A DNA stretch of 33,819 nucleotides from a bacterium BMS3Abin08 (GTDB lineage: Bacteria; Nitrospirota; Thermodesulfovibrionia; Thermodesulfovibrionales; JdFR-85): positions 1 to 33,819 of the forward strand of contig BDTA01000042.1 of NCBI GenBank assembly GCA_002897935.1, given 5' to 3'. The notes beneath the pieces were generated by a model. The model had not been told where the DNA came from, searched no databases, and saw only the letters and a program-made list of their open reading frames with translations. Made by a program: the position numbers and the translations under genes. Positions 5,206 to 27,059 of this stretch are shown in pieces. The first letter of the stretch is position 1, and the number at the start of each line of letters is the position of its first letter.

Positions 5206-7659
5206 ATGAAGAAAGGGACAAAAAAGACAGGGGAAGGTAACGTAGTGCAAGGCAACGCCGGTGAAACTACGGTTGTGTCCGGACAAAACAGCAGGCCGGC
5301 AATACCGTCAATTCATGATACCACGTTTGATTCAGGTTTAATGGGACGCCTGGGTCTGTATGAAAGCATACTTGACGGGCTGACCTGTGGTGTTTGGGTA
5401 TCGGACAGGGAAGACGTTATATGTTATGCAAACAAGGCAATGGAGATGATTGCCGGGGTTACCCATCAGAAACTCCTGGGCTACAATGTCCTTTCGGATA
5501 GTTCTGAAAATACCATCGATTATTTCCGTCAGTACTATCAGGAGGCCAAGAAAGTGTTACAGTCCGTTCATTATTCTGAAATCCCTGTTGTTACCCCGGC
5601 GGGCAGACAGACCTATCAGTCGGGCTGGTTCATACCAAGGCATAACAACGGCACATATGACGGCATGGTCTGTATCCTTGAGGACATAACAAACCAGCGA
5701 GAGATCAAGGAAGCCCTCATTAAGAGCGAGGCAAAATATCAGGAGATCGTTGAAAATGTAAACAGTATAATCATACGAATGGATTTGAGGGGGAATGTAA
5801 CGTTTCTTAACAGGTTTGCCCAGGACTTCTTCGGGTTCAGGGAGGCTGAAATACTCTCCAGGAATGCGGTAGGGACGATTATTCCCGAAAAGAAGACAGC
5901 CGTCCGGAGTTTCCGGGAAATGATCGCAAACATCGGTAAAGATCCCGGGATGTATGCCAACTGGGAATTTGAAAATATCCGGAAGGACGGCGGGAGTGCA
6001 TGGATTTCGTGGACGAATAAAGCGGTAACCGATGCAGATGGAGAGATCTCCGAGGTCCTGTGTGTAGGGAATGATATTACCGAACTGAAATACAACGAAC
6101 GGTTGCTGAAGAAGTGCCGCAATGACCTTGAAAAGAAGGTTGAACTCCGTACCGCTCAGCTTGTTGAAGCGAACAAGAGGCTGCAGCACGAGATCCACGA
6201 ATACAAATGGATTGAAGAAAGGCTCAGGAATTCCGAGTATAAATACAGACTGGTCGTTGAGAATGCCAATGAGGCCATCATGGTCGTACAGGACGGGATG
6301 TGTAGGTACATTAATCCAAAGACAGAAAAGATAACCGGGTACTCTAAAGAGGAGTTAACCGCAAACCCGTTTATTAAATTGCTGGTTCACCCTCACGACC
6401 AGCAGATGGTCCTGGGGAGATACCTGAAACTGCTGAAGGGAGATTCCCTGCCCAGTGTTTACTCCTTCAGAATTGTTGATAAATTCGGCAATATAAAGTG
6501 GCTTGAAGTAAACTCCGTCCTGATTGACTGGATGGGCAGGCCTGCATCATTAGCCTTTTGCAGTAATATAACCGAACGCAAGAGGTCGGAAGAAAGACTC
6601 AGGCTCCTCGAATCTGCCTTTCATCAGGCAAAGGACTCGATTATCATTACCACAACCGGCACAAATTATCCCTCTTCAGAGATTGTATTCGTAAATCCTG
6701 CATTTACAAAACTGACGGGGTACACAGCCGAGGAGGTTATGGAAAATCCCTCGATTATTCTCCAGGGGCCAAAAACAGATGGCGCAGAATGGCTGAAACT
6801 GGAGACTGATAAAACGGGAGGGAAGGCATTTTATGTGGAGACCGTTAATTATCAGAAAGGCGGGGCAAGGATTAACCTTGAATGGCAGATTACGCCCATC
6901 AGGGATGATGAGGGCAGAATTACTCACTTCGCTTTGATACATCGCGATATCACGGAGCGAAAGAAGGCTGAAGAGAAACTCCTTGCCTATCAGAAGCAAC
7001 TCAGTTCCCTGGCCTCTGAACTCTTACTGGCGGAGGAGAAGGAAAGGCGCCGCATTGCTACAATGCTTCACGACCATATTGGTCAATCCCTTGCCATGGC
7101 AAAGATACAGATGGGTGTACTTAGTGATTCACTTGACTCTGACAGATACGACAGCCTCCTTTCCGATATACGGTCTCTGATCGAGAAGAGCATTCAATAC
7201 ACAAAGTCTCTGACCTTTGAACTCAGTCCGCCCATACTCTATGAACTTGGTTTTGAGCTGGCCATAGAATGGCTCGGAGAGCAGATACAGAAGCATCATA
7301 AGATAAATTTCGAGTTCCATTTTGATGAAAAACCAAAGCCTCTCAACAGGGACGTCAGTGTGCTCATGTTTCAGGCGGTCCGTGAATTATCCATGAACAT
7401 TGTCAAGCATGCACATGCTCAGAGGGTGGAGGTATTAATAAAAAGAGAGGGCAAAAGGATGCTTGTCAGCATAAAGGACGACGGCGTCGGATTTGATATA
7501 TCAGAGATCGATAGAACAAAATCCTTCGGCTTTTTCAGTATACACGAACGGTTAAAACACTTTGGCGGCACGTTTTTTGTCGATACAAAACCAGGACTGG
7601 GAACGCTGGTTGTGCTTACGGCCCCTGTTGAGGTTGAGGAGGAAACGGATGAAGATTAA
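5206..7659 (+). CDS. Soluble PAS-rich sensor histidine kinase (NarX/DegS-type, HisKA_3)
   Basis: Autophosphorylating sensor kinase, 817 residues, with no membrane segment visible, so probably cytoplasmic. Four PAS-like domains can be followed: about 50-165 (PAS core ending EDITNQREI), 175-295 (ending GNDITELKY), 345-465 (SNITERKRSEER) and 470-595 (HRDITERKKAEE). A coiled coil lies near 297-345. The phosphoacceptor is H622 in LHDHIGQ, the HisKA_3 type, followed by an HATPase domain with DDGVGFD and a final GLGTLVVL. HisKA_3 kinases pair with NarL/LuxR-type regulators, and such a gene overlaps its end by 11 nt. The ligand is unknown; PAS domains could bind haem, flavin or small molecules. Position directly before the corrinoid cluster suggests it controls that cluster. 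Confidence 0.9.
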   Translation: MKKGTKKTGEGNVVQGNAGETTVVSGQNSRPAIPSIHDTTFDSGLMGRLGLYESILDGLTCGVWVSDREDVICYANKAMEMIAGVTHQKLLGYNVLSDSSENTIDYFRQYYQEAKKVLQSVHYSEIPVVTPAGRQTYQSGWFIPRHNNGTYDGMVCILEDITNQREIKEALIKSEAKYQEIVENVNSIIIRMDLRGNVTFLNRFAQDFFGFREAEILSRNAVGTIIPEKKTAVRSFREMIANIGKDPGMYANWEFENIRKDGGSAWISWTNKAVTDADGEISEVLCVGNDITELKYNERLLKKCRNDLEKKVELRTAQLVEANKRLQHEIHEYKWIEERLRNSEYKYRLVVENANEAIMVVQDGMCRYINPKTEKITGYSKEELTANPFIKLLVHPHDQQMVLGRYLKLLKGDSLPSVYSFRIVDKFGNIKWLEVNSVLIDWMGRPASLAFCSNITERKRSEERLRLLESAFHQAKDSIIITTTGTNYPSSEIVFVNPAFTKLTGYTAEEVMENPSIILQGPKTDGAEWLKLETDKTGGKAFYVETVNYQKGGARINLEWQITPIRDDEGRITHFALIHRDITERKKAEEKLLAYQKQLSSLASELLLAEEKERRRIATMLHDHIGQSLAMAKIQMGVLSDSLDSDRYDSLLSDIRSLIEKSIQYTKSLTFELSPPILYELGFELAIEWLGEQIQKHHKINFEFHFDEKPKPLNRDVSVLMFQAVRELSMNIVKHAHAQRVEVLIKREGKRMLVSIKDDGVGFDISEIDRTKSFGFFSIHERLKHFGGTFFVDTKPGLGTLVVLTAPVEVEEETDED

Positions 7660-8296
7660 GCTCATCCTGTCCGATGACCACAAGATTGTACGCGACGGTC
7701 TGCGTTCTATGCTGGCCAGGTACCAGGAAATTGAGGTGATTGCAGAGGCTGAAGATGGCAGGACAACGGTAGAGTTAGTAAAGGAAATGTCTCCCGATAT
7801 TGTCATTATGGACATTGCAATGACGGACCTCAATGGGATCGAAGCCACCCGGAAGATTATGGATGAACGGCCTGAAGTTAAGGTAATAGCTCTCTCAATG
7901 CATTCAGACAGACGGTTTGTTGCAGAGATGCTTAAGGTAGGGGCCTCTGCCTACCTGTTGAAGGACTGTGCCTTTGAGGAGCTTATAACCGCCATCCATG
8001 CCGTAATGGATGACAAGACATACCTTAGTCCGGCCATCTCCGGTATCGTTGTTGAGGACTTTATAAGACACCCTGTAAAGCAGGGGTCTTCCGTCTATTC
8101 CATACTTTCAAATCGTGAGCGGGAGGTGTTGCAGCTTCTTACGGAAGGCAAAAACACAAAGGAACTCGCCGCTCATCTCGATGTAAGCATCAAGACCGTC
8201 GAAGCTCACAGGATCAAGATTATGAATAAACTGGGTATTTATAGTGTTGCTGAACTCACAAAATATGCAATTCGTGAAGGACTCACTTCCCTTTAA
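7649..8296 (+). CDS. NarL/FixJ-family response regulator
   Basis: DNA-binding response regulator, 215 residues from ATG 7649. This start has GAGGAGG just upstream, overlaps the kinase gene by 11 nt and aligns the receiver normally; an open frame 29 codons longer lies inside the kinase gene and is not needed. The receiver has the acidic pair in SDDHK, phosphoacceptor D55 (IVIMDIAM), a Ser in switch position (IALSMHS) and K in YLLKD. The C-terminal LuxR helix-turn-helix reads LSNREREVLQLLTEGKNTKELAAHL (split here: LSNREREVLQLL, then KELAAHLDVSIKTVEAHR). It is the cognate partner of the preceding kinase, and the corrinoid cluster 255 nt downstream is the obvious target. Confidence 0.93.
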   Translation: MKIKLILSDDHKIVRDGLRSMLARYQEIEVIAEAEDGRTTVELVKEMSPDIVIMDIAMTDLNGIEATRKIMDERPEVKVIALSMHSDRRFVAEMLKVGASAYLLKDCAFEELITAIHAVMDDKTYLSPAISGIVVEDFIRHPVKQGSSVYSILSNREREVLQLLTEGKNTKELAAHLDVSIKTVEAHRIKIMNKLGIYSVAELTKYAIREGLTSL

Positions 8297-8550: not shown

Positions 8551-9582
8551 ATGAAAAGTTTGTCGCCAAGAGAGAGGGTGCTGGGATTTTTAAATGGTGA
8601 AGAAGTTGACAGGCCACCTATATTCAGCGGCATGGGGAACGTAATAACATCCGTACTTGAAAAGTACGGGATCAATTTTGCCAAGGCCCATCGTGACCCT
8701 GAACTGATGGCAAAGGCAGCGGCAGGGATGTACCGTGACTTCGGTTTTGAATGCGCTGTAGTCCCCTTTGACCTGGGTGTGGAGGCTGAGGCGCTCGGTT
8801 CAAAGATGAATTACTACGACGATGTGGAGGGCCTGCTTTATCCTACCGTCAAGGAAAAGTTTGTAAAAACCGCTGAAGACATCGAGTTTCCGGAGGACCT
8901 TGAAAATACAGGCAGGATTCCTGTTGTTGCGGAAGCAATAAGGATATTACGAAGGGAAATCGGAGGGGATGCTGCCATAGGAACGTATATCCTCGGTCCC
9001 TTTACGCTTGCAGGCCAGGTAAAGGAACTGGACGAACTCTTTGAAGAATCCTTCCTTAATCCTGAGGAGACAAGCCGCTTACTTGAGAAGCTTTCCGACT
9101 TCATTATCAGGGTTTTGGATATTTACAGTAAAGCCGGCGCTGACTATTTTACACTTCGCGAGATGGGAGGAACCTCCGATGTAATGAGCCCGAGAAGCTT
9201 CAGGAGTCTTATCAAACCCCATCTCATGAAGATTATTGCTGAAATGCCCCATCCCAGCATATTACACATCTGCGGCGATACGAATGCCATTATTCAGGAT
9301 ATGGCGGAGTGTGGGGCCGATGCTATCAGTGTCGACCAGAAAAACCATCTTACCGAAACAAGACAGAAGCTCGGCAATGATGTAATCATCCTTGGTAATT
9401 TCGATCCTATAAAGGTCTTGATGCAGGGTAAGGCCGGAGATGTCTGTCCGGCGGTAACAGGATGCCTGACTGCCGGAGCAGATGCGGTCTGGCCGGGATG
9501 CGACCTGTGGCCGGAGGTCCCAAGGGAAAATATGGAGACCTTAATATCCTGCCTCAAGGAGGCTAAGGCTTTAGGGGTGTGA
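8551..9582 (+). CDS. UroD-fold corrinoid methyltransferase, MtaA/CmuA-like (first copy)
   Basis: Predicted zinc-dependent methyltransferase that moves a methyl group between a corrinoid protein and a thiol, tetrahydrofolate or substrate. It has the UroD-like (beta/alpha)8 fold, opening SPRERVLGFLNGEEVDRPP. The zinc ligand pattern of MtaA/MtbA enzymes is complete: H239-x-C241 (LHICGDT) and C317 (PGCDLWPEVP). True HemE lacks this triad and no haem genes are nearby. Length 343 is usual. AGAAAGGAGATG precedes the ATG. It heads the cluster and its stop is one base from the GTP-binding gene. C-terminal PGCDLWPEVP is nearer MtaA-type (methyl acceptor side) than the second copy at 15193. Substrate is unknown. 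Confidence 0.85.
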   Translation: MKSLSPRERVLGFLNGEEVDRPPIFSGMGNVITSVLEKYGINFAKAHRDPELMAKAAAGMYRDFGFECAVVPFDLGVEAEALGSKMNYYDDVEGLLYPTVKEKFVKTAEDIEFPEDLENTGRIPVVAEAIRILRREIGGDAAIGTYILGPFTLAGQVKELDELFEESFLNPEETSRLLEKLSDFIIRVLDIYSKAGADYFTLREMGGTSDVMSPRSFRSLIKPHLMKIIAEMPHPSILHICGDTNAIIQDMAECGADAISVDQKNHLTETRQKLGNDVIILGNFDPIKVLMQGKAGDVCPAVTGCLTAGADAVWPGCDLWPEVPRENMETLISCLKEAKALGV

Positions 9583-9583
9583 T

Positions 9584-10189
9584 GTGAAACTGGTACAGAT
9601 AGCAGGTTATCTTGGATCCGGCAAGACCACCCTCGTTATTGCATTGAGCAAGGGCCTGTCAAGGTCGGGCTTGAAGGTGGCGATCCTGGTTAATGAGATA
9701 GGCGAAATCCCTGTTGACGGCAAGGTTATAGAGGATTACGGGTTTACCGTTAAGGACATCGGGGGCGGTTGTATCTGCTGCCAGATTGCCGGAAATCTGA
9801 CAAGGACATTGCGGTTCCTGGGGGATGAACAAAATCCGGATTTGGTTATTATCGAGCCAACGGGGATGGCGGTACCAGGTTCGATAAGAGAGACCGTTGA
9901 AGCTCTTAACATAGACATCGGCCCCACTATCGTACTCTTTGATACAACACGATCTGAAAAGCTTCTGAACTATGAAACGCTGAAGAGGCTGATCTCCACC
10001 CAGATCAGAGATGCCGACTTTATCGCCCTTAGCAAGATCGATAAGGTGTCCGAGGATGTGATTGAACATGCAAGGGCGGCCGTTTCCGTCATTAATCCTG
10101 CCGCCGGGATCATAAGACTCTCAACGCGAAGGGGAGATGGTGTTATGACCCTTGCCGCGGCTGTTCAGGAGGTGACCATAAAAAAATGA
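9584..10189 (+). CDS. G3E-family metal-chaperone GTPase (CobW/HypB/UreG-like)
   Basis: P-loop GTPase of the COG0523 type, 201 residues. It has Walker A GYLGSGKTT (8-16), the metal-binding GGGCICC (60-66, Cys 63, 65, 66), a Walker B-like LVIIEPTG and the base-recognition SKID (150-153). The separate C-terminal domain found in most CobW proteins is absent, leaving a minimal GTPase like HypB or UreG. The start is GTG at 9584, one base after the previous stop; AGGGGTG provides the ribosome site. Family knowledge says G3E proteins deliver metals or cobalamin cofactors to target enzymes. Here zinc delivery to the methyltransferases or corrinoid loading is inferred from context. Confidence 0.9.
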   Translation: MKLVQIAGYLGSGKTTLVIALSKGLSRSGLKVAILVNEIGEIPVDGKVIEDYGFTVKDIGGGCICCQIAGNLTRTLRFLGDEQNPDLVIIEPTGMAVPGSIRETVEALNIDIGPTIVLFDTTRSEKLLNYETLKRLISTQIRDADFIALSKIDKVSEDVIEHARAAVSVINPAAGIIRLSTRRGDGVMTLAAAVQEVTIKK

Positions 10190-10641
10190 AGGATGATCTC
10201 CAGAGCAGGGACCCCCTCCATGAAGGAATTTTTGCCTATAGCGTTTCATGTCTCCTCTCAAGGGACAGGGATATCGAAGGCAATGAACTCAGAAGGTTTG
10301 CCGGGGAACTGATGGTCTCTGTATCCGGGACCTGCTTTCACTACGGGGCTATAGATATCGGGCATATTAAGGCGTATATCGAAACGGGTACCGGATTTTT
10401 ATATGCGGACACCCTCGGAGATGCCGGGGATGTAACTATAGAGGGAAGAGAAGGGAATGCTGTACACGGTTTCAGGCTTGTCCTGAACTCGGTTATCTAC
10501 GGGATTACGGAGGAGGCTGTAAAAGAGGCTACGGAAGAGGCACTTGAGAGGACGATTAGCGGATTCGGTCTGTCGAGGCAGCCTGTTGCACCAAAGGTAA
10601 TTCCATTGTATAGGCCGGAAGGAGGAATGCATGACGGGTGA
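10186..10641 (+). CDS. Conserved-looking hypothetical protein in corrinoid cluster
   Basis: A 151-residue soluble protein that I do not recognise. It starts with an ATGA overlap on the GTPase gene and its end overlaps the ATPase gene by 11 nt, so it is translationally locked between them. The middle shows alternating hydrophobic strands ([20 protein letters not shown]) and an [13 protein letters not shown] segment. A long acidic helix follows ([19 protein letters not shown]). One Cys and two His lie in the central part. No signal peptide or membrane segment is present. Tight coupling suggests it works with the GTPase or the AAA+ ATPase, perhaps as an adaptor. That is inference. Confidence 0.8.
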
Positions 10642-11461
10642 TATCCATACAAAAACCATTGAGAAGAGCATGCAGGATTTCAGGATAGAGGGGGAACCCT
10701 TTTATCTTCCAATCGAGGATGAGATCCGGCTTTTCGAGATTGCTTACCGCAATCAGCTTCCCCTCATGCTGAAGGGTCCCACTGGGTGCGGGAAAACCCG
10801 TTTTCTCTCTTACATGGCATATAAGCTGGATCTGCCCCTGATAACAATTGCCTGCCACGAGGACCTGACCGCAAGCGATCTTGTCGGAAGATACCTGCTC
10901 GATGGTGCATCAACGCGCTGGCAGGATGGCCCGCTGACCCTTGCAGTAAGGTACGGAGGGATATGTTATCTCGACGAGATAGTAGAAGCGAGGAAAGACA
11001 CCACGGTTGTGATTCACCCACTGACCGATGACCGGAGGATGCTCCCGATTGAGAAGCAGGGGCAAATTCTGGAGTCAACGGATAAGTTCATGCTTGCCAT
11101 ATCATATAATCCCGGTTATCAAACGGTCCTTAAGGATCTCAAACAGAGTACCAAACAGCGATTTATCTCGATTGAATTCGGTTATCCACCGGCAAGCCTT
11201 GAAGAGGAGATCATAATCCATGAGGGCAGTGTGGACAAGAGGACGGCATCCGACCTGAGGAAGATAGCAGAAAAATTCCGCACATTGAAGGGCAGGGGGC
11301 TTGACGAAGGGGTGAGTACAAGACTCCTGATATATGCGGGACTATTGATTAAAGAGGGTATTGACCCACGCCGGGCCTGTACCGTTGCTCTTATAATGCC
11401 GATAACTGATGACCCTGAAATGCAAAAGACTTTGAAAGAGGTTGTCTCAACTGTAGTATAG
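10631..11461 (+). CDS. CbbQ/NorQ-type MoxR AAA+ ATPase
   Basis: ATP-driven remodelling ATPase of the MoxR clade, 276 residues. It has Walker A GPTGCGKT (49-56) and Walker B CYLDE (E115), with the segment [13 protein letters not shown] typical of CbbQ/NorQ. A sensor-1 Asn lies in ISYNPGYQ and an arginine-finger-like STKQRF follows. The C-terminal CbbQ-type domain is present ([17 protein letters not shown]). Known relatives form hexamers that, with a VWA partner, activate Rubisco (CbbQO) or nitric oxide reductase (NorQD). Its VWA partner is next door, 8 nt downstream. No Rubisco or NO reductase gene is in the window, so the client is probably a corrinoid enzyme or RACE. Confidence 0.9.
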
Positions 11462-11469: not shown

Positions 11470-14163
11470 ATGAGAGAAGATATATCGCTATCAGAGACGA
11501 TAGTTCTTGTTGGTGAGAGGCTCGGAGAAGATGACTATCTCAGGGAGAAAATCCGTGATGTCAGTCCCCTGCTCAATGATGAGGGATTAAAAAACTACGT
11601 AAGGCTTATCGGCATGTTTGTCAGCTTCGATCACTCCGTATCTCTCCGGCTGCTCAAGACGGGAAGGGGTCTGTTCTCAGCAATTGATGATCCTGATACG
11701 TGTACGGAGGTGCTCAATGAGGTAATCAGGATGGGCAGGGCTAAATGGAGTGTGGCAGCCGAGGCCCTGAAGACTCTACCCCTTGTTGCTCATATGCCTT
11801 CAGGATTCCTTGCAGACTGGTTGAGCCTTGGTAACAGGATCGGTGAGATTGATCAGGACGTGGCTATTCAATATATTGCCGTATCACCTCCGGTATATGA
11901 AATACTTGGCACTGCAAGGTTCGTTCACTGGGCTTCATGGGGCCGGAAGATCACGGAGATGGCATGGAAGGCGGGCAGGGAGTATTTTAAAGCGAGTCCG
12001 GATGTCCTTAAGAGAGTCGATCCCTGTGAGATAGAACGATGGGCAAGTCTCGGTATGCACCTTATTGAAAAGAGCCCCCGGGTTAAGACCGGGTATGGGG
12101 CACACAGTCTCTTTGCACAGGGCACAGGTGCAGGTAAGCCCAGGGTGATTGATCTGGCGGCGCAGTATTTCAGGTCATCACCACAGATACTTGGACGCCT
12201 CTCGATGAATGACCTGGAACAATGGGTTGTAAAGGGCCTGGAGGCCGTTGATAGCGGCAGAGACAAGGGAACGGCGTTTTTTTCCTTAGAGACCGGATCG
12301 AGCCGGGAGACGGTAGAGAACCTCGTAAAGGGGACCGAGTTAAGGGATATTTATTCCGTCCTCAACAGGTCTGCAGCTTTTTTGGTTGACAGGCGAATCC
12401 GGATCAGATCGTCTTCCCTGTTTTACAAAAACCTTCCGGGACTGGGCCGCTTTTTCTCTGTAACGGATGGTACGAGGATATTCCTCCCATCGAGGATTTC
12501 AGTATTTGAGGACGAAGAGATGAATTTCAAGACCTATAAGTGTACCCTTGCACATGAGATAGCCCATATTCTGTTCGGGACATTCGACATTGGTCCGGAT
12601 CGGGTTAACAGACTTTCAGATTCTGACCGCCATGTACATGCATTCAGGATCTTTGAATTCCTTGAGGACGAAAGGGTTGATTATCTCATGGGGCGGGAAT
12701 ACCCGGGACTCGAAAAGGACAGACGCATGATCATGGACAATTATCTGAGCAGGATACCCCACGGTGATAACGGGGGAAGATCTGTTTTCGCCTCTTTAGG
12801 GTTTCAGCTCCCGGACACATTCGATAAATCGGGAACTAAGAAGAGTGAGTTGAGGTCAGTACTTGAAGGTGCATTAAAAGAGGTGAGGGACCCTGCACAG
12901 ACTGTTCAGGGTGTACTTGAGTTAACAATGAAGATCTGCAGTTGCCCCGGGAATGAAAGACCCCTTGAGTTCTCTGAAAGCCGGCAAGCATACGAGCGGC
13001 TCTTTTACCGTGGCATAATTGACTACAGGCTTGTCGAGAGCGCCCGTGCCGGTATGTCTCATCTGCTTTCAGAGATGATGGAACGGTTTAATGAAGGGGG
13101 CAGAGAAGTAGATTCAGAGGTAATTGAAGAGGCCATTCTCAGGATAGAAGAGTGTGAAGGGCCTGAATCCGAGCTGCTCCTCTGGCAGACAGGAGATAAC
13201 AGGGAACTCGATGAATTATATGAAAGAGTTGAGCTTATCGTCACAGATATTGAGGAAGAGAGCCGCTACAGGAGGTCTGTCTATTACGATGAATGGGATC
13301 TGGAACTCAATGACTACAGGAAGGACTGGTGCAGGGTACGTGAGATAGAGATGCCGCCCACAACCCTCAGTTTCTATAACGATACAATCAGTGTCAACTA
13401 TGGGCTTGTGAGTCTCCTGAGGAGACACTTTGGTCTTCTAAGGCCTGACAGGATAAAACGGTATTTTCGTGAGGAACGGGGAGACGATTTTGATCTTGAT
13501 GCCCTGATTGAATCTATTGTTGACCGTCATGCAGGGGTGACCCCGTCAGACAGGGTATATATCCGCAGGGACAAAAAATTGAGGGATGTTTCTGTTGCCT
13601 TTCTCGTGGATATGAGCTATTCCACCGGTGAGGAACTTCCCTCCGGCAAGAGGATAATTGATATCGAGAAGGAGGGGCTTGTCCTGATGGCCGAGGCCCT
13701 TGAGAGTATCGGCGACAGGTGGGCTGTTTATGGATTCTCCACAAACTACAGGGACCGGGTCGACTTCTATATTGTCCGTGATTTCAATGAACCCTTTAAC
13801 GATGAGGTGAAGATGCGTTTTGAGAGTATCCAGCCGATGGCCCAAACACGTTTGGGATCTGCCGTCAGACATGCAAACAAGCTGCTGGAAAAACAGGATT
13901 CCCTGATACGCCTGCTGATTCTGCTCTCAGACGGCAGACCTTATGATATTGACTACGGTGAACTCGACTATGCGGTTGAGGATACGAGGATGGCCCTCTG
14001 GGAGGGCCGCAGCAGGGGGATAAGCTCCTTCTGTATTACGGTAGACAAAAGGAGCCGCGAATATCTCTCCCATATGTACGGGGAATCGAACTACACGATT
14101 ATAGATAACATTGAGTCTTTACCAACGAGCCTGCCACTGATTTACAAAAGGCTTACAACCTGA
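11470..14163 (+). CDS. CbbO/NorD-like VWA protein with embedded HExxH zincin motif
   Basis: Large partner of the preceding ATPase, 897 residues, soluble. Residues 1-330 form a helical repeat-like region with recurring W-x-x-x-G units (LSLGNRIGEID, HWASWGRKITEMAW, ERWASLGMHLIEKS, EQWVVKGLEAVDS). A metallopeptidase-like core follows: HEIAH at 362-366 and LEDERVD at 398-404, the His-His plus Glu layout of gluzincins. The C-terminus is a VWA domain with a complete MIDAS (DMSYS 714-718, then LILLSDGRPYD). In CbbO and NorD the VWA MIDAS anchors the ATPase to its client. The zincin-like core may be catalytic or only a metal-binding scaffold. No client is identified. Confidence 0.85.
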   Translation: MREDISLSETIVLVGERLGEDDYLREKIRDVSPLLNDEGLKNYVRLIGMFVSFDHSVSLRLLKTGRGLFSAIDDPDTCTEVLNEVIRMGRAKWSVAAEALKTLPLVAHMPSGFLADWLSLGNRIGEIDQDVAIQYIAVSPPVYEILGTARFVHWASWGRKITEMAWKAGREYFKASPDVLKRVDPCEIERWASLGMHLIEKSPRVKTGYGAHSLFAQGTGAGKPRVIDLAAQYFRSSPQILGRLSMNDLEQWVVKGLEAVDSGRDKGTAFFSLETGSSRETVENLVKGTELRDIYSVLNRSAAFLVDRRIRIRSSSLFYKNLPGLGRFFSVTDGTRIFLPSRISVFEDEEMNFKTYKCTLAHEIAHILFGTFDIGPDRVNRLSDSDRHVHAFRIFEFLEDERVDYLMGREYPGLEKDRRMIMDNYLSRIPHGDNGGRSVFASLGFQLPDTFDKSGTKKSELRSVLEGALKEVRDPAQTVQGVLELTMKICSCPGNERPLEFSESRQAYERLFYRGIIDYRLVESARAGMSHLLSEMMERFNEGGREVDSEVIEEAILRIEECEGPESELLLWQTGDNRELDELYERVELIVTDIEEESRYRRSVYYDEWDLELNDYRKDWCRVREIEMPPTTLSFYNDTISVNYGLVSLLRRHFGLLRPDRIKRYFREERGDDFDLDALIESIVDRHAGVTPSDRVYIRRDKKLRDVSVAFLVDMSYSTGEELPSGKRIIDIEKEGLVLMAEALESIGDRWAVYGFSTNYRDRVDFYIVRDFNEPFNDEVKMRFESIQPMAQTRLGSAVRHANKLLEKQDSLIRLLILLSDGRPYDIDYGELDYAVEDTRMALWEGRSRGISSFCITVDKRSREYLSHMYGESNYTIIDNIESLPTSLPLIYKRLTT

Positions 14164-14408: not shown

Positions 14409-14438
14409 TTGCAGGAAGGACAGCTCTGGAGATTTATT

Positions 14439-15101
14439 ATGGAAAAGGCGGAAGCTACAAAGAAAATCAGGAAGCTTGAAGAATTTGCACTTGACAGAGG
14501 TGCAGACCATGCCAGGGTCTTTCCGGCACGCATGGTTGTACTGGATGAGCGGGTAAGGATGAAGTGCCAGATTCCCCTCTGCCCTCACTACGGTCGTACA
14601 CTGACCTGTCCACCGAATGTGCCTACCGTTGAAGAGTTCAAACAGGTACTGAACCGCTATAGAGAGGCACTTTTAATACAGATAGTGACTTTGCTGGAGA
14701 AGAAAGCCGAGTCCTACGACAGGGAAGAAGTTAAGGAGTTTTTTAAAAACCCCGGCAAGAAATCAAGGAAGAAAGGGGGTGAAGACCAGGAAGCCGTTGA
14801 TGACTTCGTTAAGGTAAAGGATGCTGCCGTCATGCTGCATAAACTGGTTAACGAGCTTGAACTCAAGGCCATGACCCTTGGGTTCCCTTATGCCCTCGGT
14901 CTTATCGGGGGGGAGTGCATGCTTTGTACTGAATGCGTGGGTGCTGGTTCTGCAAAGGGATGCAGGCATCCTTATGAAGCGAGGCCGTCAATGGAGGGGG
15001 TTGGTATCGATGTAATCAAGACAAGTCTAAAGGCGGGACTGCCCTTTGAGATACCGCCGCAAAAGGAGATAGTATGGAGCGGACTGGTCCTGATCTGTTA
15101 G
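14439..15101 (+). CDS. DUF2284 predicted metal-binding protein
   Basis: Soluble 220-residue protein from ATG 14439, preceded by GGAGA; the frame is open from a TTG at 14409 but without a better ribosome site. It shows the DUF2284 arrangement: CQIPLCPHYGRTLTCPPNVP near the N-terminus and a C-terminal cluster GGECMLCTECVGAG followed by GCRHPYEARPSMEG. Seven or more conserved Cys suggest an iron-sulfur cluster or other metal site. DUF2284 genes are often seen with corrinoid methyltransferases; their biochemical role is not known to me. A low-complexity Lys-rich insertion (NPGKKSRKKGGEDQE) sits in the middle. Confidence 0.85.
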   Translation: MEKAEATKKIRKLEEFALDRGADHARVFPARMVVLDERVRMKCQIPLCPHYGRTLTCPPNVPTVEEFKQVLNRYREALLIQIVTLLEKKAESYDREEVKEFFKNPGKKSRKKGGEDQEAVDDFVKVKDAAVMLHKLVNELELKAMTLGFPYALGLIGGECMLCTECVGAGSAKGCRHPYEARPSMEGVGIDVIKTSLKAGLPFEIPPQKEIVWSGLVLIC

Positions 15102-15192: not shown

Positions 15193-16260
15193 ATGGCAAC
15201 AAAGGATGAAATGAGCGGCCTTGAACGGATAGCAACTGCTCTACAGCAAAAGGAGGCTGACAGGGTGCCCGTTGCCCCACTTGTATGTGGGGCTTCACAC
15301 CGGGTGTATGGAATAACCTATGGTGAGTGGTCCAGATGTACAAATATCGATGCAATGGTTCGCGGGCATGTCGAGGCAATAAAATTGCTTGGTCATGATG
15401 GAGTGGTGGCACTTGTTGACCTGTCAGTCGAGGCAGATGCATTCGGCTGTGAGGTTATATTCCCTGAATTCGATACCGCCCATCCAAATTATGACGCCCC
15501 CTTCATTAAGGGACCTGATGAATACGGGAAGATAAAAAAGGTGAATCCGAGAAAGACCCAGAGGATGAAGGGAGTAATTGACATGGTTGCAGGGCTTTCC
15601 AGGGAGATCGGCGAGACGCACGCAATAGTCGGTTTCGTTTATGGCTCCCTCGGGACGTTGAGCATGATGCGCGGTCCCGAGAACTTCTTTATGGACCTGA
15701 TGGAGCACCCCGATGAAGTAATGGAAGCCCTCCAGATCATGGATGATGTGCTTGCCGAATATGCGGTGGCCCAGGCTGAGGCGGGCGCCCACGCTGTGTG
15801 CTATGACAACCTCTATGCTTCGCAGAGTATATTGAGCAAGGAGCTGTGGGAGAAATTCGAGGGCGAGTCGCAGAAGAAGGTCTGTGACGCTATTCGTAAC
15901 GCCGGAGCCCTTGTGCTCTTTCATAACTGTGGGAACGGGATATACTTTGACATGTGCGAAAAGTGGGGCTCCCCTATAGGGATTTCTCATGCCTATGTAT
16001 CCGATGATGTGGACAGCTGGGCAGAGCACAAGGCAAAGTGGGGCGGCAAGATTGCGACCATTGGCTGGATTCCGCCCGGACCCGTAGCAATGCTCGGTAC
16101 GCCGGAAGAGATTGAAGAGGAATGCAAGGCTGAAATCGAGATATTCGCAAAGGGTGGGGGATTCATACTCTCAACCGGATGTGAGTTCGGGCCTAATGCA
16201 CCGCTATGGAATTCCCGGTTAATTGTTGATGCTGCAAAAAAATACGGTGTATACAAGTAA
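15193..16260 (+). CDS. UroD-fold corrinoid methyltransferase (second copy, probable MT1)
   Basis: A second UroD/MtaA-superfamily methyltransferase, 355 residues, only distantly similar to the first. The zinc triad is H244-x-C246 (LFHNCGNG) and C330 (STGCEFGPNAP). The C-terminal STGCE-GPNAP differs from the first copy and from canonical MtaA, resembling the UroD-like methyltransferases that demethylate substrates onto a corrinoid protein. It directly precedes the corrinoid protein gene (38-nt spacer), the usual place for the substrate-specific methyltransferase. AAAGGAGGAGG provides a very strong ribosome site. No MtaB, MtmB, MtbB, MttB or MtrH gene is in the window, so this protein is the best MT1 candidate. 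Substrates could include methoxylated aromatics or methyl thiols; the sequence does not say which. Confidence 0.85.
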   Translation: MATKDEMSGLERIATALQQKEADRVPVAPLVCGASHRVYGITYGEWSRCTNIDAMVRGHVEAIKLLGHDGVVALVDLSVEADAFGCEVIFPEFDTAHPNYDAPFIKGPDEYGKIKKVNPRKTQRMKGVIDMVAGLSREIGETHAIVGFVYGSLGTLSMMRGPENFFMDLMEHPDEVMEALQIMDDVLAEYAVAQAEAGAHAVCYDNLYASQSILSKELWEKFEGESQKKVCDAIRNAGALVLFHNCGNGIYFDMCEKWGSPIGISHAYVSDDVDSWAEHKAKWGGKIATIGWIPPGPVAMLGTPEEIEEECKAEIEIFAKGGGFILSTGCEFGPNAPLWNSRLIVDAAKKYGVYK

Positions 16261-16298: not shown

Positions 16299-16976
16299 AT
16301 GGCATTTACAGAAAAAGAAAAGGAGTTGATTGACAGGCTTCAGGATGCTGTAGTCAACTATAAGGTTGACGAGGCAAGGAAGGCTGCTCAAGACGCTGTT
16401 GATGCGGGAGTTAATGCTTACACGATGACAATGGAAGGGCTTGCAGGGGGCATGGCAGTGGTAAGCGAAAAGTTTGACAGCCATGAGTACTTTGTCCCTG
16501 AAACGCTCCTCTGTGCAAAGGCACTCTATGCGGCCCTGGATATCCTGAAACCCCGGATCAAGGTCAAGGACGGGGAGGTGAAGGGACAGGTGGTGCTCGG
16601 TGTCCTGCAGGGAGACGTACATGACCTCGGTAAGAACCTCATAAAGGCGGTATTCGAGGCAGCCGGCTGGACGGTACACGACCTCGGGAGGGACGTTCCC
16701 CTCCAGAAGTTCGTTGAGGAACAGATCCGGACAGACTCGGATATAGTCATGCTTTCGGCCTTGATGACGACCTCCATGGTGGGAATGAAGAGGGTGATAC
16801 CAATGATCAAGGAAAAAAACCCAAATGTCAAGATCATGATTGGTGGAGCTCCCATTACAGAAAAGACCGTTGAGGAGTTTGGCGCTGATTCTACCGCAGA
16901 CAATGCCCCCAATGCATTGCAGGAAGCAATCCGGATGGTTGATGTACTCAAGAAAGGGGAGATGGCATCCGCGTAA
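16299..16976 (+). CDS. Methyltransferase corrinoid-binding protein (MtaC/MtbC/MttC-like)
   Basis: Small corrinoid carrier, 225 residues. The N-terminal four-helix cap (about 1-90) leads into a B12-binding Rossmann domain with GDVHDLGKN, where H108 is the lower axial cobalt ligand. The further cobalamin signature parts are MLSALMTTSM and MIGGAPITEKTVEEFGAD. It shuttles a methyl group as methyl-Co(III) between two methyltransferases. It follows the second UroD-like enzyme and carries AGGAGG before the ATG. A 123-bp mobile element separates it from the activator gene. It is the only corrinoid protein in the window, so both methyltransferases presumably use it. Confidence 0.95.
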   Translation: MAFTEKEKELIDRLQDAVVNYKVDEARKAAQDAVDAGVNAYTMTMEGLAGGMAVVSEKFDSHEYFVPETLLCAKALYAALDILKPRIKVKDGEVKGQVVLGVLQGDVHDLGKNLIKAVFEAAGWTVHDLGRDVPLQKFVEEQIRTDSDIVMLSALMTTSMVGMKRVIPMIKEKNPNVKIMIGGAPITEKTVEEFGADSTADNAPNALQEAIRMVDVLKKGEMASA

Positions 16977-17164: not shown

Positions 17165-19120
17165 ATGAAGGAGCATACCGTGATCCTGCAGCCGTCGGGA
17201 AGACGTGGCAAAGTCCCCGAAGGAACCACCATCCTTGAGGCTGCCAGAAGGCTGGGGGTGGGTATAGAAGCAGTCTGTGGGGAGAAGATGGTTTGTGGAA
17301 AATGCAGGGTAAAAATAATGGAGGGCCGCTTTACCAAAGAGGGAATAACGTCATCGATGAGCCATCTGACCGGACGTGCAGAAAAGGAAAAGAAGATACT
17401 GAAACACAGGGAGACAAAAGAAGGAGTCCGCCTGGCATGTTCTACTGAAATCCTTGGGGATATACTCGTTTTTGTCCCTGAGGCAAGCCGGACAGGTGAA
17501 CAGGTGGTACGGAAGGAAGCGGGGAAGATCAAGGTACGCTTAAAGCCGGCTGTCAGAAAGTATTATGTTGAACTGTCCACTCCATCCCTCGATGACCCTC
17601 TCGGGGACTTTGAACGCCTTAAGGATGCCCTTGCAAAAGAATACGGGCTTAAGAAACTCAAACTTGATTTCGGTGTTCTTCAGAAACTGCCGGATATCCT
17701 CAGGAAGTCGGACTGGAGGGTTACAGTAACGGTATGGCAGGGTTGCGAAGTAATACGTGTAGAGCCCGGGAAGGAGGACGTTAATATTGGCCTTGCAGTG
17801 GATATCGGCTCAACCACGGTGGCAGGCTACCTGACCGACCTCAATACAGGAGAGGTACTCACAACAGAGTCCTTGATGAATCCACAGGTAAAGTACGGTG
17901 AAGACGTTATGTCCCGAATAACACACTGTATGCTGAATGAGGACAGCGGCCTTAAGGAACTCCGGCAGACAATTATCGATGGATTAAATACCATCATAAA
18001 GAAGGCCGTGAAGAGAATTTCCCGCTTACCCGAGGACATAAGTGAGATGACCATCGTAGGCAACACCGCCATGCACCACATGTTGCTCGGTATCAATCCG
18101 GAGTTTATGGGGGTTGCCCCCTTCACCCCGGCCATACATGAATCCATTGATATAAAAGCCGGGCGTCTGGGATTGCATATGCTCCCCACAGGCAATGTAC
18201 ACATTCTGCCCATTGAAGCCGGGTTTGTCGGTGCCGATAACGTGGGGTGCCTCCTTGCCGATGCACCACACAAACGAAGTGAGATAACCCTGCTGATAGA
18301 CATCGGGACGAATGGAGAGCTTATACTCGGGAATAAGGAGAGGCTCATCTCCTCCTCCTGCGCTACAGGGCCTGCCCTCGAAGGTGCCCAGATAGAGTAT
18401 GGAATGCGCGCGGCACCCGGTGCACTTGAGAAAATCAAGATTGATCCCGGCACATATGAAGTGCATTACAAGGTGATAGGGAACGACAACTGGAGTGACG
18501 GTAAAAGGAATATGCAGGCAAAGGGTATATGCGGCTCAGGGATTATAGACGGTATTGCCGAGATGTTCCTTGCCGGCATAATCAAGAAGAACGGACGGAT
18601 AAACCCGGAAATACAGTCTTCCCGACTCAGGAAAAGCGCAAAGGGGATGGCTGAGTTTGTTATTGCCTGGGGCCATGAGACTTCAATTGGTGAGGATATC
18701 GTTATCACGCAGAAAGATATACGGGCTATTCAGCTTGCCAAGGGGGCGCTTTATGCAGGATGTTTGATTATGATGAGGGAATTGGGAATTAAGAGCTTCG
18801 ACCGCCTGGTCATTGCAGGTGCCTTCGGAAACCATATAAATAAGTTCTCTGCAATGGCAATGGGGATGTTCCCTGACTGTGAACCTGATAAGGTGCAGAC
18901 GATCGGCAATGCCGCTGGGGACGGTGCGCGTATAGCTCTGTTGAATGTGAACAAGAGGCGTGAGGCATATGATATCGCGAGAAGGGTTGAGTATATCGAA
19001 TTGGGGTTAGAAGAGGATTTTAATGACCGTTTCTGCGAGGCGATGCAGTTCCCGCACATGTTCGACGAGTTTTCTCATCTTGCGGGTATGTTACCTGTTG
19101 AGTATAAAGAGGCCATGTAA
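17165..19120 (+). CDS. Reductive activator of corrinoid enzymes (RACE; ASKHA, DUF4445)
   Basis: ATP-dependent reductase that returns inactive Co(II) corrinoid protein to Co(I). It is 651 residues. An N-terminal [2Fe-2S] ferredoxin domain has C38, C44, C47 and C92 (AVCGEKMVCGKC...RLACSTE). A linker domain runs to about 200. The C-terminal ASKHA ATPase region starts LAVDIGSTTVAGYLTDL and includes TIVGNTAMHHMLLG, LLIDIGTNGE, a Ser-rich SSSCATGPALEGAQI and VIAGAFGNHI. GGAGG stands 11 nt before the ATG. RACE genes accompany corrinoid methyltransferases of acetogens and methylotrophs. The target is surely the corrinoid protein just upstream. Confidence 0.95.
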   Translation: MKEHTVILQPSGRRGKVPEGTTILEAARRLGVGIEAVCGEKMVCGKCRVKIMEGRFTKEGITSSMSHLTGRAEKEKKILKHRETKEGVRLACSTEILGDILVFVPEASRTGEQVVRKEAGKIKVRLKPAVRKYYVELSTPSLDDPLGDFERLKDALAKEYGLKKLKLDFGVLQKLPDILRKSDWRVTVTVWQGCEVIRVEPGKEDVNIGLAVDIGSTTVAGYLTDLNTGEVLTTESLMNPQVKYGEDVMSRITHCMLNEDSGLKELRQTIIDGLNTIIKKAVKRISRLPEDISEMTIVGNTAMHHMLLGINPEFMGVAPFTPAIHESIDIKAGRLGLHMLPTGNVHILPIEAGFVGADNVGCLLADAPHKRSEITLLIDIGTNGELILGNKERLISSSCATGPALEGAQIEYGMRAAPGALEKIKIDPGTYEVHYKVIGNDNWSDGKRNMQAKGICGSGIIDGIAEMFLAGIIKKNGRINPEIQSSRLRKSAKGMAEFVIAWGHETSIGEDIVITQKDIRAIQLAKGALYAGCLIMMRELGIKSFDRLVIAGAFGNHINKFSAMAMGMFPDCEPDKVQTIGNAAGDGARIALLNVNKRREAYDIARRVEYIELGLEEDFNDRFCEAMQFPHMFDEFSHLAGMLPVEYKEAM

Positions 19121-19828: not shown

Positions 19829-21925
19829 ATGAAACGTAATCCAAGACCCATTTTTTCAAGTCCTTTCGTTTTAGCCCCAAAAACAGTGAAGGCCCTTTTC
19901 ACGCCGTTTCTCAATTATCTTGATGCAGGGAGACTCCTCATGTTTCCCGCAAGCATCATCCTATCTCTCGCCCTTATGGTATCCGCTGTATCGGCCGGTA
20001 CCGCAGACAGGGAGGGAGATGAGACAATTGATGTAGGGGAGATCGTTGTTACTGCAACGAGGTATGAGGAGCAGATCTCCGGTATACCGGCAAATGTTAC
20101 CGTGATTACAGAGGATGAGATAAAAAACTCAACTGCCCGTGACATCCCTGACCTCCTGAGAACGGAGGTTGGAATTCAGGTGACCGACATCACCGGAAAC
20201 GGGAGGAATCTCAATGTTGATGTAAGAGGGTTCGGTGAAACGGCTCCACTCAATACCCTGGTGCTCGTTGACGGAAGAAGGGTGAATCAGGCAGACCTGA
20301 GCGGGGCTGACTGGATACAGATACCCCTGGACAGGGTAAAGCGGATTGAGATAATCCGGGGTGGCCGCGGCAGCGTCCTTTATGGCGACAATGCAGCGGG
20401 AGGTGTTATTAATATCATTACCAGGAGCGGTAATAAATTCAGGACCGGTGGCGAGCTTGCCTACGGGAGCTATGATACATTCAGGGGTAACGGCTTTGTA
20501 GGCGGGACCTCTGGGGATCTCTCATATTATCTGTCCGGCAGCTATTCGTCTACCGACGGGTACAGGGAAAACAGTAATTCCGAATCAAAAGACTTCGGCA
20601 CAAAGCTCGATTACTACATAGGAGACTCCCTCAGGTTAGGCCTGAGCAGCGGGTATCACAAGGACAACACCGGCCTGCCCGGAGCCCTTAGGGAGAGTGA
20701 TCTTGATTCAGGGGTTTCAAGAAGGGATTCGTTGAACCCGAAAGACTTTGCCGACACCGAGGACTACTATGTAACGTTTACCCCCCAGGTCTACTTCCTG
20801 GATGAAAGTTACTTTAAGGTGGAGACCTCTTACAGAAAGAGGAGTTTTCTCTCCTTTGCATCCTTTGCAGATGGTAATTTTACGGGTGATACGGAGATCG
20901 ATACCATAGCCATCTCACCCCAGCTTCTCCTGAAGGGAAAGATAGGCGGGATCCCCAATACCCTGACAGCGGGTTTCGATTATCAGAAGGCCAAGGAGGA
21001 CATACTCAATGATTCGCTCTTCTTCGGCACCCGTACCCTGGGTAATTTCAGACTGGAGAAAGAGAACTATGGCTACTATATACATGACCGGGCGACGGTA
21101 ACAGATGGCCTGGAGGTCTCGGGCGGGTACCGTTTTGACAGTGCTGATTTCTCCTTCAGCCCCAGCACACCCGACAGCACAACCCTTGACCAGAACCTCT
21201 TTACCCTCGGTATAAATTACAGATACCAAAAAGACTCCCATGTATATGCAAGCTATTCGAGGAGCTTCAGGTATCCTGTGCTGGACGAACTCTTCAGCTT
21301 TTTTACCAATACGCTTGATACAGGCCTGGTCCAGCAGACCTCGAATGACTATGAAATAGGGCTGAGGCACCGGTTTAATGATGCCGTTTCCGCTTCAATA
21401 AACGTCTTCAGGATTGACACGGATGATGAGATCTTCTTTAACCCCATGACCTATGCGAATGAGAACCTTGACGGGACCACAAGGCGTCAGGGGCTTGAGG
21501 TCTCCTTTGAAACAAAGGCCCTTGACTGGCTCTCCCTGGGGGGGAGTTATACCTACACGGATGCCACGATCAGGGGCGGACAGTTTGAGGGGAATGATAT
21601 TCCCGGTGTCCCCAGACACAAGGCAACCCTGAATACCCTCCTCACATTCAAGGGTGGGATCAGTATGCGGCTGAGCGGTGTTTACACAGGTGAGAGGGCC
21701 TTTATAAGTGACTTCAACAATGAGTTCGACCGTCAGAAAGGCCATATTATCTTTAATGCAAAGGTGATGTACCGGTGGAAGAAGATGACGGCATTTGTTG
21801 ATGTATTAAATATCACGAACAAAGAATACTCCGAATACGGTGTGATTTCCGGGTTTCCAGCGGAGAAGGCATTTTATCCCTCCCCCAAGAGAAACTTTCT
21901 TGTCGGGGTAAGGGTGGAACTCTAA
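19829..21925 (+). CDS. btuB: TonB-dependent vitamin B12 outer-membrane receptor
   Basis: Outer-membrane transporter for cobalamin, 698 residues. An unusually long N-terminal leader (first hydrophobic core at about 38-56, MFPASIILSLALMVSAVSAG) precedes a TonB box-like IDVGEIVVTATR. The plug domain follows (about 75-190, with LVLVDGRRVNQ, IEIIRGGRGSVLYGDNAAGGVINI). The 22-strand barrel runs to the terminal NFLVGVRVEL. GGGAGGAG sits 4-5 nt before ATG 19829; an internal ATG at 19940 would give a normal-length signal peptide but has no such site. B12 is assigned because of the riboswitch and the following btuFCD, since sequence alone cannot exclude a siderophore receptor. Confidence 0.9.
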   Translation: MKRNPRPIFSSPFVLAPKTVKALFTPFLNYLDAGRLLMFPASIILSLALMVSAVSAGTADREGDETIDVGEIVVTATRYEEQISGIPANVTVITEDEIKNSTARDIPDLLRTEVGIQVTDITGNGRNLNVDVRGFGETAPLNTLVLVDGRRVNQADLSGADWIQIPLDRVKRIEIIRGGRGSVLYGDNAAGGVINIITRSGNKFRTGGELAYGSYDTFRGNGFVGGTSGDLSYYLSGSYSSTDGYRENSNSESKDFGTKLDYYIGDSLRLGLSSGYHKDNTGLPGALRESDLDSGVSRRDSLNPKDFADTEDYYVTFTPQVYFLDESYFKVETSYRKRSFLSFASFADGNFTGDTEIDTIAISPQLLLKGKIGGIPNTLTAGFDYQKAKEDILNDSLFFGTRTLGNFRLEKENYGYYIHDRATVTDGLEVSGGYRFDSADFSFSPSTPDSTTLDQNLFTLGINYRYQKDSHVYASYSRSFRYPVLDELFSFFTNTLDTGLVQQTSNDYEIGLRHRFNDAVSASINVFRIDTDDEIFFNPMTYANENLDGTTRRQGLEVSFETKALDWLSLGGSYTYTDATIRGGQFEGNDIPGVPRHKATLNTLLTFKGGISMRLSGVYTGERAFISDFNNEFDRQKGHIIFNAKVMYRWKKMTAFVDVLNITNKEYSEYGVISGFPAEKAFYPSPKRNFLVGVRVEL

Positions 21926-21961
21926 ATCCGGTTTCGGGGAGGAAAGAGGTTCGGTTTCGGA

Positions 21962-22828
21962 ATAAAAAAGATACTGTTATGCGTATGCCTGTGCCTGACT
22001 TTTGCAGGGAATGCCTACGCCTATACATACGACAGGATAATCTCCCTCGCCCCCAGTATAACGGAGATACTCTTTTCTCTCGGTCTTGATGACAGGATAG
22101 TCGCTGTAACGAACTTCTGCGACTATCCGCCCGAGGCAAGGAAAAAGCCAAAGATCGGGGGTATGTCCAACCCGTCACTTGAGGCGGTAATCGCGTTAAA
22201 ACCCGACGTCGTTGTGCTTACCAAGGACGGAAACCCTAAGGAGTTTGAAAGGCGTCTGAGGAGCCTCAATGTAAGGACCTATGTGTTCAGTGCAACAAGG
22301 ATCGCCGATCTCCCCGCTGAAATTCTGAAGATGGGGAAATTCCTCGGTGTAGAAGTGCGTGCCAGGGACCTTGCCGGCAGGATCGAATCGGAATTCAATC
22401 ACTACAGGAATGCCTACAAAAAGCCATCGGGGAAGCGGGCGGTCTTTATTGTCTGGCCTGAGCCCCTTCTGGTTGCCGGGCCTGATACAGCGGTGGATGA
22501 TGCGCTCAGGCTGCTCGGCTGGGGAAACGTGGCCTCAGGGGCAAGGGCCCGGTATCCCAGGTATTCAATTGAAGAACTGATTCTTCAGGCCCCCGACGTG
22601 ATACTGATAGGCAAGGGACATAAGGATATGAAGGCCCTCTCCGGAAGGCTCCTCAAGCGCCTAAATGTCCTAAAGGCAGTAAAAAACGGCAGGGTATATT
22701 ATACCGGTGATTTTCTATACAGGCTTGGTCCAAGGGTGATTGAAGGGATCCGGGAGCTTGAGGGGATACTCTATAATAAATCCGGTGCTAAAGAGACAGG
22801 CATATCCGGCAATGGACTGCACGATTGA
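21962..22828 (+). CDS. btuF: Periplasmic cobalamin-binding protein, apparent ATA start
   Basis: Substrate-binding protein of the B12 ABC importer, about 288 residues. Reading the frame upstream from ATG 22163 gives IKKILLCVCLCLTFAGNAYA (a signal peptide), then DRIISLAPSITEILFSLGL, the classic BtuF opening. The internal ATG would delete the signal and the N-terminal lobe. The frame is open back to 21926 but contains no ATG, GTG or TTG; ATA at 21962 stands where Met should be. AGAGG lies about 12 nt upstream. Either AUA is used, or one base is mutated or misread. The last region (GRVYYTGDFLYRLGPRVIEGI) is typical. It starts 36 nt after btuB and shares its riboswitch. Confidence 0.8.
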   Translation: MKKILLCVCLCLTFAGNAYAYTYDRIISLAPSITEILFSLGLDDRIVAVTNFCDYPPEARKKPKIGGMSNPSLEAVIALKPDVVVLTKDGNPKEFERRLRSLNVRTYVFSATRIADLPAEILKMGKFLGVEVRARDLAGRIESEFNHYRNAYKKPSGKRAVFIVWPEPLLVAGPDTAVDDALRLLGWGNVASGARARYPRYSIEELILQAPDVILIGKGHKDMKALSGRLLKRLNVLKAVKNGRVYYTGDFLYRLGPRVIEGIRELEGILYNKSGAKETGISGNGLHD

Positions 22829-22933
22829 TCCTGCACGGCCTTGAATTTTCCATAGGATTCTTCGGGCTACCCATCGCATGCCGGCCCATGGTTCCGACCA
22901 TAGAAGATAACGTTCTCAGAGAGGTATCTTGAG

Positions 22934-23896: not shown

Positions 23897-23897
23897 T

Positions 23898-24644
23898 ATG
23901 ACGATTCTGGAATTGAGGAAGGTCTCGTTCTCTTATGAAAAGTCTTCCTTTATAAACAAACTCTCCCTGTCCATTAAAGAGGGTGAGTTTGCAGGGATTA
24001 TAGGGGCAAACGGGTCAGGGAAATCAACGATACTGAAGCTCTCTGCGGGTATACTAAACCCCTCGGATGGTGAGGTGCTTCTCTGGAACAAGCCCATACG
24101 CCGGTACCGTGGTAAGGACAGGGCAAAGCTCATAAGCTACCTGCCTCAGATGCTCGACAGCAATCTGCCTTTCAGGGTGAGGGAACTGGTAAGCATGGGG
24201 CTTTATCCCTATGATATCCCGCCGGAACTCACACCTGATGAGGCAATAGAAGTGGTGGGACTCCGGAATAAGAAGGACTCCCCTGTTACGGAATTGAGCG
24301 GGGGGGAGAGAAGACGGGTCTTCATTGCCATGACGCTCCAGCAGGGAGCGGGTGCTCTACTCCTTGATGAGCCACTTGCAAACCTTGATATCAGGTACCA
24401 GATTGAACTTATAAGATTACTCAAGGGGTTGAGGATAGAGAAGGGCATATCCGTTCTGATGGCCCTCCATGACATCAATATGGCCTTTCTCTTTGATACC
24501 GTTCATGTCATCAAGGAAGGAAGGCTTCTTATATCGGGTAACCCTGAAGAGACTATCACGGAACAGGTATTGCATGAGGCCTTTGGTGTGGATGTCAATA
24601 TTTACAGACAGGAAGATGGAACGTTTTCCTTTGGGTATAAATGA
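23898..24644 (+). CDS. btuD: Cobalamin ABC transporter ATPase
   Basis: Cytoplasmic ATP-binding subunit, 248 residues from ATG 23898, one base after the btuC stop. It has Walker A GANGSGKST (36-44), Q-loop LPQ, signature LSGGERR (133-139), Walker B LLLDEP (154-159) and switch His in ALHDINMA. A longer frame begins inside btuC but is not needed. The stop overlaps the next gene by ATGA. It energises BtuC for uptake of cobalamin captured by BtuF. Confidence 0.94.
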   Translation: MTILELRKVSFSYEKSSFINKLSLSIKEGEFAGIIGANGSGKSTILKLSAGILNPSDGEVLLWNKPIRRYRGKDRAKLISYLPQMLDSNLPFRVRELVSMGLYPYDIPPELTPDEAIEVVGLRNKKDSPVTELSGGERRRVFIAMTLQQGAGALLLDEPLANLDIRYQIELIRLLKGLRIEKGISVLMALHDINMAFLFDTVHVIKEGRLLISGNPEETITEQVLHEAFGVDVNIYRQEDGTFSFGYK

Positions 24645-26988: not shown

Positions 26989-26998
26989 ATCCCCCCTC

Positions 26999-27019: not shown

Positions 27020-27059
27020 AATCTTACCCACACAAAACTCGGAGGAGCCTAAAAAGAAA

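Follow-up and report, generated by a model that had tools for sequence, protein, structure and literature searches.

The window analysed here, a stretch of 33,819 nucleotides, encodes among corrinoid methyltransferase genes a VWA protein of the NorD/CbbO type that carries a HExxH motif and a distal glutamate. Does this site bind a metal, does it cut protein, and which client is served by the protein and its AAA+ partner? To our knowledge, the clients of MoxR-VWA machines are mostly unknown. The reading preferred here, to which we assign a probability of about 0.58, is that the protein is the VWA half, or adaptor, of a CbbQ/NorQ-type AAA+ machine maturing or reactivating a zinc- and corrinoid-dependent methyltransferase system, and that its H-H-E site would bind a metal, with a conserved role other than peptide hydrolysis. 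The features of the locus are collected in Table 1.

Table 1. Genes of the corrinoid methyltransferase cluster and sequence features of the VWA adaptor (window coordinates).
Feature	Coordinates	Strand	Evidence and remarks
PAS histidine kinase (5206-7659) and LuxR-type response regulator (7562-8296), head of the cluster	5206..8296	+	
MtaA/MtbA-type methylcobamide methyltransferase (MT2-like) with H-x-C...C zinc motif	8551..9582	+	PF01208; NF004889 above cut-off
CobW/COG0523-type G3E GTPase, GGGCICC metal motif	9584..10189	+	PF02492
151-aa protein, conserved in the Nitrospirota operon	10186..10641	+	no Pfam or NCBIfam match
CbbQ/NorQ-type MoxR AAA+ ATPase, partner of the adaptor	10631..11461	+	PF07728; PF08406 CbbQ_C 4.7e-31
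NorD/CbbO-type VWA adaptor	11470..14163	+	897 aa; ORF, PF00092, phmmer, AlphaFold
N-domain segment, residues 228-600, with the H-x3-H...E site	12151..13269	+	alignments, hhalign to CbbO and NorD N-domains
HEIAH, residues 362-366	12553..12567	+	predicted helix 349-368
LEDERVD, residues 398-404	12661..12681	+	predicted helix 388-410
MIDAS DMSYS (D714, S716, S718)	13609..13623	+	completed by T793 (13846-13848) and D821 (13930-13932)
DUF2284 predicted metal-binding protein	14409..15101	+	PF10050
URO-D-fold methyltransferase (MT1-like), H-N-C...C zinc motif	15193..16260	+	PF01208
Corrinoid (B12-binding) protein	16299..16976	+	PF02310, PF02607
RACo/AcsV-type corrinoid reactivation ATPase	17165..19120	+	PF14574, PF17651, PF17650

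Organization of the adaptor

The adaptor starts with helical repeats, followed by the domain hosting the H-x3-H...E site and by a linker; the VWA domain is C-terminal, and is the only region matched in Pfam (residues 709-878). The original prediction had described a gluzincin-like layout, formed by HEIAH and LEDERVD, in one chain with an intact VWA MIDAS. Both elements are in place. The two histidines and the distal Glu are conserved, 31 residues lie between H366 and L398, and all five MIDAS residues are present, D714, S716, S718 and D821 being invariant in alignment A3, and T793 in alignments A1 and A2. The same prediction spoke of the ATPase partner as possibly binding zinc or cutting protein; the site is in the VWA adaptor, and not in the ATPase. 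The HExxH...EDxR motif is not due to chance. Any HExxH was obtained in 2.3% of composition shuffles of the adaptor, and HExxH followed at 20-60 residues by [LIVF]EDxR in 0.01% of them.

Conservation of the H-H-E site

Relatives of the adaptor were gathered from Nitrospirota, Bacillota, Pseudomonadota and plasmids. Overall, 85 non-redundant family proteins were aligned, and residues at positions 362, 363, 366 and 399 were tabulated. Both histidines are found in 62/85 proteins, all of which feature also E399; Glu is found at position 363 in 25 only. In a set of 61 sequences, drawn from the corrinoid-operon, CbbO and Nitrospira clades, only 6 of the 372 columns of the N-domain (residues 228-599) are invariant: H362, H366, E399, D400, R402 and G413. 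H362, H366 and E399, half of the invariant set, match the residues by which a gluzincin would hold its metal; E363 is not included. The invariance of H, H and E, which the original prediction proposed to check by alignment, holds in 61/61 sequences, but does not extend to the Glu of HExxH, which varies.

A tree of 84 of the 85 proteins was drawn from the VWA region alone, and is as such independent of the motif columns; being a quick build, some of its deep forks and long branches are uncertain. The window adaptor is found outside the CbbO clade, in a clade of 12 Nitrospirota-type rows, all featuring HExxH. Its sister group is made of 8 Bacillota proteins, seven of which have HxxxH without Glu, and one HEMAH. 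HEAGH is found in the Nitrospira-type clade (n=12), and HxxxH lacking Glu in all the 28 rows corresponding to CbbO and relatives, where position 363 is M, I, C, T, L or A. The triad is gone in the NorD-type proteins (n=9), the second His is lost in short paralogues (n=6), and a further Nitrospirota clade (n=7) features mostly YQAGY. In the latter (homologues L037, L038, L047, L048, L054) YQAGY replaces HEAGH; both His are changed to Tyr and Glu to Gln, and the distal Glu is kept, as though the entire metal site had been disabled.

H362, H366 and E399 are invariant in the 20/20 corrinoid-operon orthologues, 13 of which have Glu at 363. This residue is conserved throughout the Nitrospirota part of the window clade (12/12), and is replaced by L, M, Q or K in 7/8 Bacillota orthologues of the same corrinoid-methyltransferase operon, which read HLSAH, HLVAH, HLAAH, HMAAH, HQLAH, HLTSH or HKLAH. 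The H-x3-H...EDxR triad was found in the whole CbbO set (29/29, one amidase-linked relative included), and Glu at 363 in none (0/29). The identity of CbbO rests on neighbours, as ORFs of RuBisCO subunits, recognised by eye, adjoin the CbbQ-CbbO genes; they are a form I large subunit in L160 and L163, and a form II-type subunit in L161. The observation of the motif is stronger than first stated, because the triad extends to CbbO.

These patterns make it unlikely that the N-domain is an active zinc protease of the gluzincin type, cutting the methyltransferase or the corrinoid protein during maturation. Full HExxH and distal Glu do occur, in 12/12 Nitrospirota sequences from the window clade as well as in 12 homologues of the Nitrospira type, and DUF2201 offers a precedent for HExxH associated to a VWA-like domain, but the catalytic Glu is missing in 7/8 same-operon Bacillota orthologues and in all CbbO examined, no zincin fold was matched, and Pfam peptidase matches are at chance level (M78, E 0.11; WLM, E 0.067). 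Since same-operon Bacillota orthologues lack the general base E363, proteolysis is probably not the conserved function of the site. Of the initial suggestion that the protein may bind zinc or cut protein, the first part gains support from the invariant H, H and E, and the second, taken as a family function, does not stand. The H362, H366, E399 triad is thus regarded as probably a metal site, a candidate suggested by sequence conservation.

Fold and family of the N-domain

The AlphaFold model of the adaptor (mean pLDDT 77) matches the fold of NorD (9qh6, 9qhd). Sequence similarity to the solved NorD chains, monitored by phmmer, spans about residues 587-896 (9qhd, 1.9e-52; 9qh6, 4.1e-44). Two models place HExxH and E399 in the two helices listed in Table 1, the local pLDDT of the AlphaFold model being about 75-90. 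The model of the N-domain, derived from a shallow alignment of 14 sequences (mean pLDDT 75), has only short strands ahead of the two helices. A Foldseek search of the isolated domain model against the PDB gave no match at E < 0.001, and no zincin.

The N-domains of VWA proteins partnering MoxR have been described as not conserved, and those of NorD and CbbO as unrelated (PMC9976466). The window-type and CbbO N-domains were aligned by hhalign with a probability of 99.5%, H, H and E being in register; values for the window-type and NorD N-domains ranged from 90 to 97%, varying with the set. These alignments suggest that window-type, CbbO and NorD N-domains make one family, in which the site was lost in NorD. 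Accordingly with the tree, H362, H366 and E399 are all absent from NorD, though a homologous N-domain is kept.

Alternatively, a metal-free, hydrogen-bonded network for helix packing could be formed by H, H, E, D and R of the invariant set, likeness to zincins being a coincidence of helix geometry. The persistence of E399 in the YQAGY clade, where both His are lost, and in some HxxxQ-type paralogues, fits this view, as do the neighbouring D400 and R402, as invariant as the triad, and the failure to find a zincin fold. Yet the two His and E399 occur together in 62/62 HxxxH sequences, the positions in between varying freely, and His residues at i and i+4 on one helix, with a Glu on a later helix, are a standard layout for metals. 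A packing network is considered rather unlikely.

In HD domains, the second position of the motif must be acidic. A site of the HD-superfamily phosphohydrolase kind, rather than zincin-like, was considered, as a dGTPase is the best PDB sequence match of the profile (E 0.0096), over a HDxGxxPFG-like stretch. The match is weak, however, and the acidic second position varies freely here (position 363); the resemblance is a motif coincidence only, and an HD-type site looks highly improbable.

Genomic context

Genes in the cluster are ordered as kinase, regulator, MtaA-like methyltransferase, CobW, 151-aa protein, NorQ, adaptor, DUF2284, URO-D methyltransferase, corrinoid protein and RACo. The full order is kept, as far as each contig extends, in 11 loci (L011-L021), mostly from Nitrospirota by record name, two being filed under other names. 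Kinase and regulator are kept in the Nitrospirota loci whose contigs extend far enough upstream, the CobW GGGCICC motif in 9/9 Nitrospirota loci compared, and the MT1-like H-N-C motif is present in the loci compared. In the operon of Nitrospirota, the 151-aa protein invariably separates CobW from NorQ. The adaptor gene starts 9 bases past the end of the ATPase gene, and the two lie side by side in the Bacillota loci and in all Nitrospirota corrinoid loci with contigs long enough to include the ATPase. In Bacillota, the NorQ-adaptor pair is accompanied by the URO-D methyltransferase and the corrinoid protein, and usually also by CobW and DUF2284; locus L096 showed no DUF2284, and L097 no CobW.

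Orthologues of the adaptor and of the URO-D methyltransferase were each found in 11, and together in 10, of 396 Nitrospirota genomes (Fisher p about 5e-18, relatedness ignored). Both single-gene exceptions, one adaptor alone and one MT1 alone, are at contig edges. The operon is patchy across genera and classes, which may point to horizontal transfer.

The neighbours of the window adaptor are genes for corrinoid methyltransferases, not RuBisCO, and no norB/norC-type genes were found among the window genes searched. We infer the client of the adaptor from guilt by association. By analogy with NorQD and CbbQO, the methyltransferase or the corrinoid protein encoded alongside should be the client, and the MT1-like URO-D-fold methyltransferase is a likely one, given its co-occurrence with the adaptor. 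Corrinoid and zinc methyltransferases would be a new, likely class of clients for MoxR-VWA machines.

Downstream of RACo (19829-24644), genes for a TonB receptor, a periplasmic binding protein, a FecCD permease and an ABC ATPase are found. The set probably serves corrinoid uptake, and none was observed in the related loci used for comparison. Farther on, a HEPN and nucleotidyltransferase pair, laid out as a toxin-antitoxin module, is located at 28613-29286. It adjoins a DUF4143 AAA_14 gene (27172-28413) and a DUF559 gene (26695-27033).

Plausible role of the probable metal site

NorQD reportedly twists its adaptor via a finger inserted in the ATPase pore, and is needed for iron insertion (PMC13036017). 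CbbQO reactivates RuBisCO, and its MIDAS is required (PMC5437159). In the preferred reading, that of a maturation or reactivation machine with a metal-binding adaptor, H362, H366 and E399 would hold a single divalent ion, be it Zn, Co or Fe. The ATPase hexamer would grip the adaptor by the VWA domain and twist it, as shown for NorQD, and the metal-bearing domain would dock on, or hand the metal to, the TIM-barrel methyltransferase or the corrinoid protein. Roles envisaged for the site are a structural metal, the shaping of the face on which the client docks, or the carriage of metal supplied by CobW.

As one alternative within this reading, the pair might remodel an inhibited methyltransferase, as CbbQO does on RuBisCO, with no insertion of metal, the site only shaping the docking surface. 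RuBisCO and URO-D-type methyltransferases have TIM-barrel folds, so that clients would be TIM barrels both times. The triad is moreover common to CbbO, an activase adaptor (PMC5437159). CobW-type metallochaperone GTPases and zinc methyltransferases encoded in the operon point instead to metal handling, and pure remodelling is a tentative option, below even odds.

It may also be conjectured, though with less confidence, that CbbO-like adaptors share an unrecognised metal-carrying N-domain (H-x3-H...EDxR), which would receive metal, here perhaps Zn or Co from CobW, and pass it to the client as the AAA+ hexamer twists the adaptor. If metal transfer were true, corrinoid methyltransferases would be a new class of clients of MoxR-VWA machines. 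NorD, of all relatives the best studied, acts in metal insertion without the triad, and hence the triad is not needed for metal insertion in general; we know of no metal insertion by CbbO. The most conserved N-domain residues of CbbO and of the corrinoid-operon adaptors are the candidate metal triad, lost in NorD. CbbO is an established component of an in vitro RuBisCO activase, and the triad offers three point mutations testable in it.

Comparison with known systems

The original prediction called for a comparison with CobT, CbbO and NorD; the triad is found in CbbO, not in NorD, and the link to CobT is weak. CbbO resembles the window adaptor in having a CbbQ-type partner, a MIDAS-bearing VWA domain, a homologous N-domain and an identical H-x3-H...EDxR triad, but its first His is not followed by Glu, and its gene is located beside RuBisCO rather than corrinoid methyltransferases. 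NorD (9qhd, 9qh6), which acts in NorQD for iron insertion into cNOR, shares a VWA domain with about 30% identity, a matching fold, a NorQ-type partner and detectable homology in the N-domain. It differs for the loss of H362, H366 and E399 and for the client, which is a membrane oxidoreductase. NorD chains of solved structure are also shorter than the window protein, by about 250 residues.

CobS-CobT, of the aerobic cobaltochelatase, similarly combine a MoxR with a VWA protein, and are connected with cobalt and CobW. CobT proteins L109-L120 feature a helix, AVEQARVE, resembling LEDERVD, preceded by H-x4-H in place of HxxxH. The Pfam CobT profile matched 1/14 members of the adaptor family (E 0.0058), and hhalign values were 9-23%; on this weak link, CobT may carry a remote, modified form of the N-domain.

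DUF2201 (PF13203, putative metallopeptidase) includes HExxH and a VWA-like domain in one chain, according to the Pfam description, but residues following HExxH differ from those of the adaptor. Membership of the adaptor in DUF2201 was rejected, as hmmscan gave no match and hhalign values were 0.2-3.5%. One Pseudomonadota sample was also searched for DUF2201, with no hits over cut-off.

MtaABC/MtbA-type corrinoid operons that include RACo share with the window MT1-like, corrinoid, MT2-like and RACo genes. NorQ, the VWA adaptor, CobW, DUF2284 and the 151-aa protein are additions of the window operon. In the literature searched, mostly outside subscription journals, neither a description of such a set with NorQ and a VWA adaptor was found in work on corrinoid clusters, nor a mention of the HxxxH site in work on CbbO, NorD, MoxR-VWA systems and corrinoid clusters.

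Other associations were seen among the relatives. Genes beside the Nitrospira-type HEAGH adaptors (L023, L024, L103, L106, L107) code for a small conserved protein, for a malate/lactate dehydrogenase and for a NuoF-like product; an adjacent NorQ gene is often absent. In the Paraburkholderia plasmid pBN4 (L128), a CbbQ and VWA pair featuring HALAH...IEDARVE adjoins an aliphatic amidase gene, which suggests an amidase or nitrile-type client. In a Miltoncostaea oceani plasmid (L057), the VWA adaptor is split near the motif region into two genes (5350-6438 and 6585-8231), probably by a frameshift.
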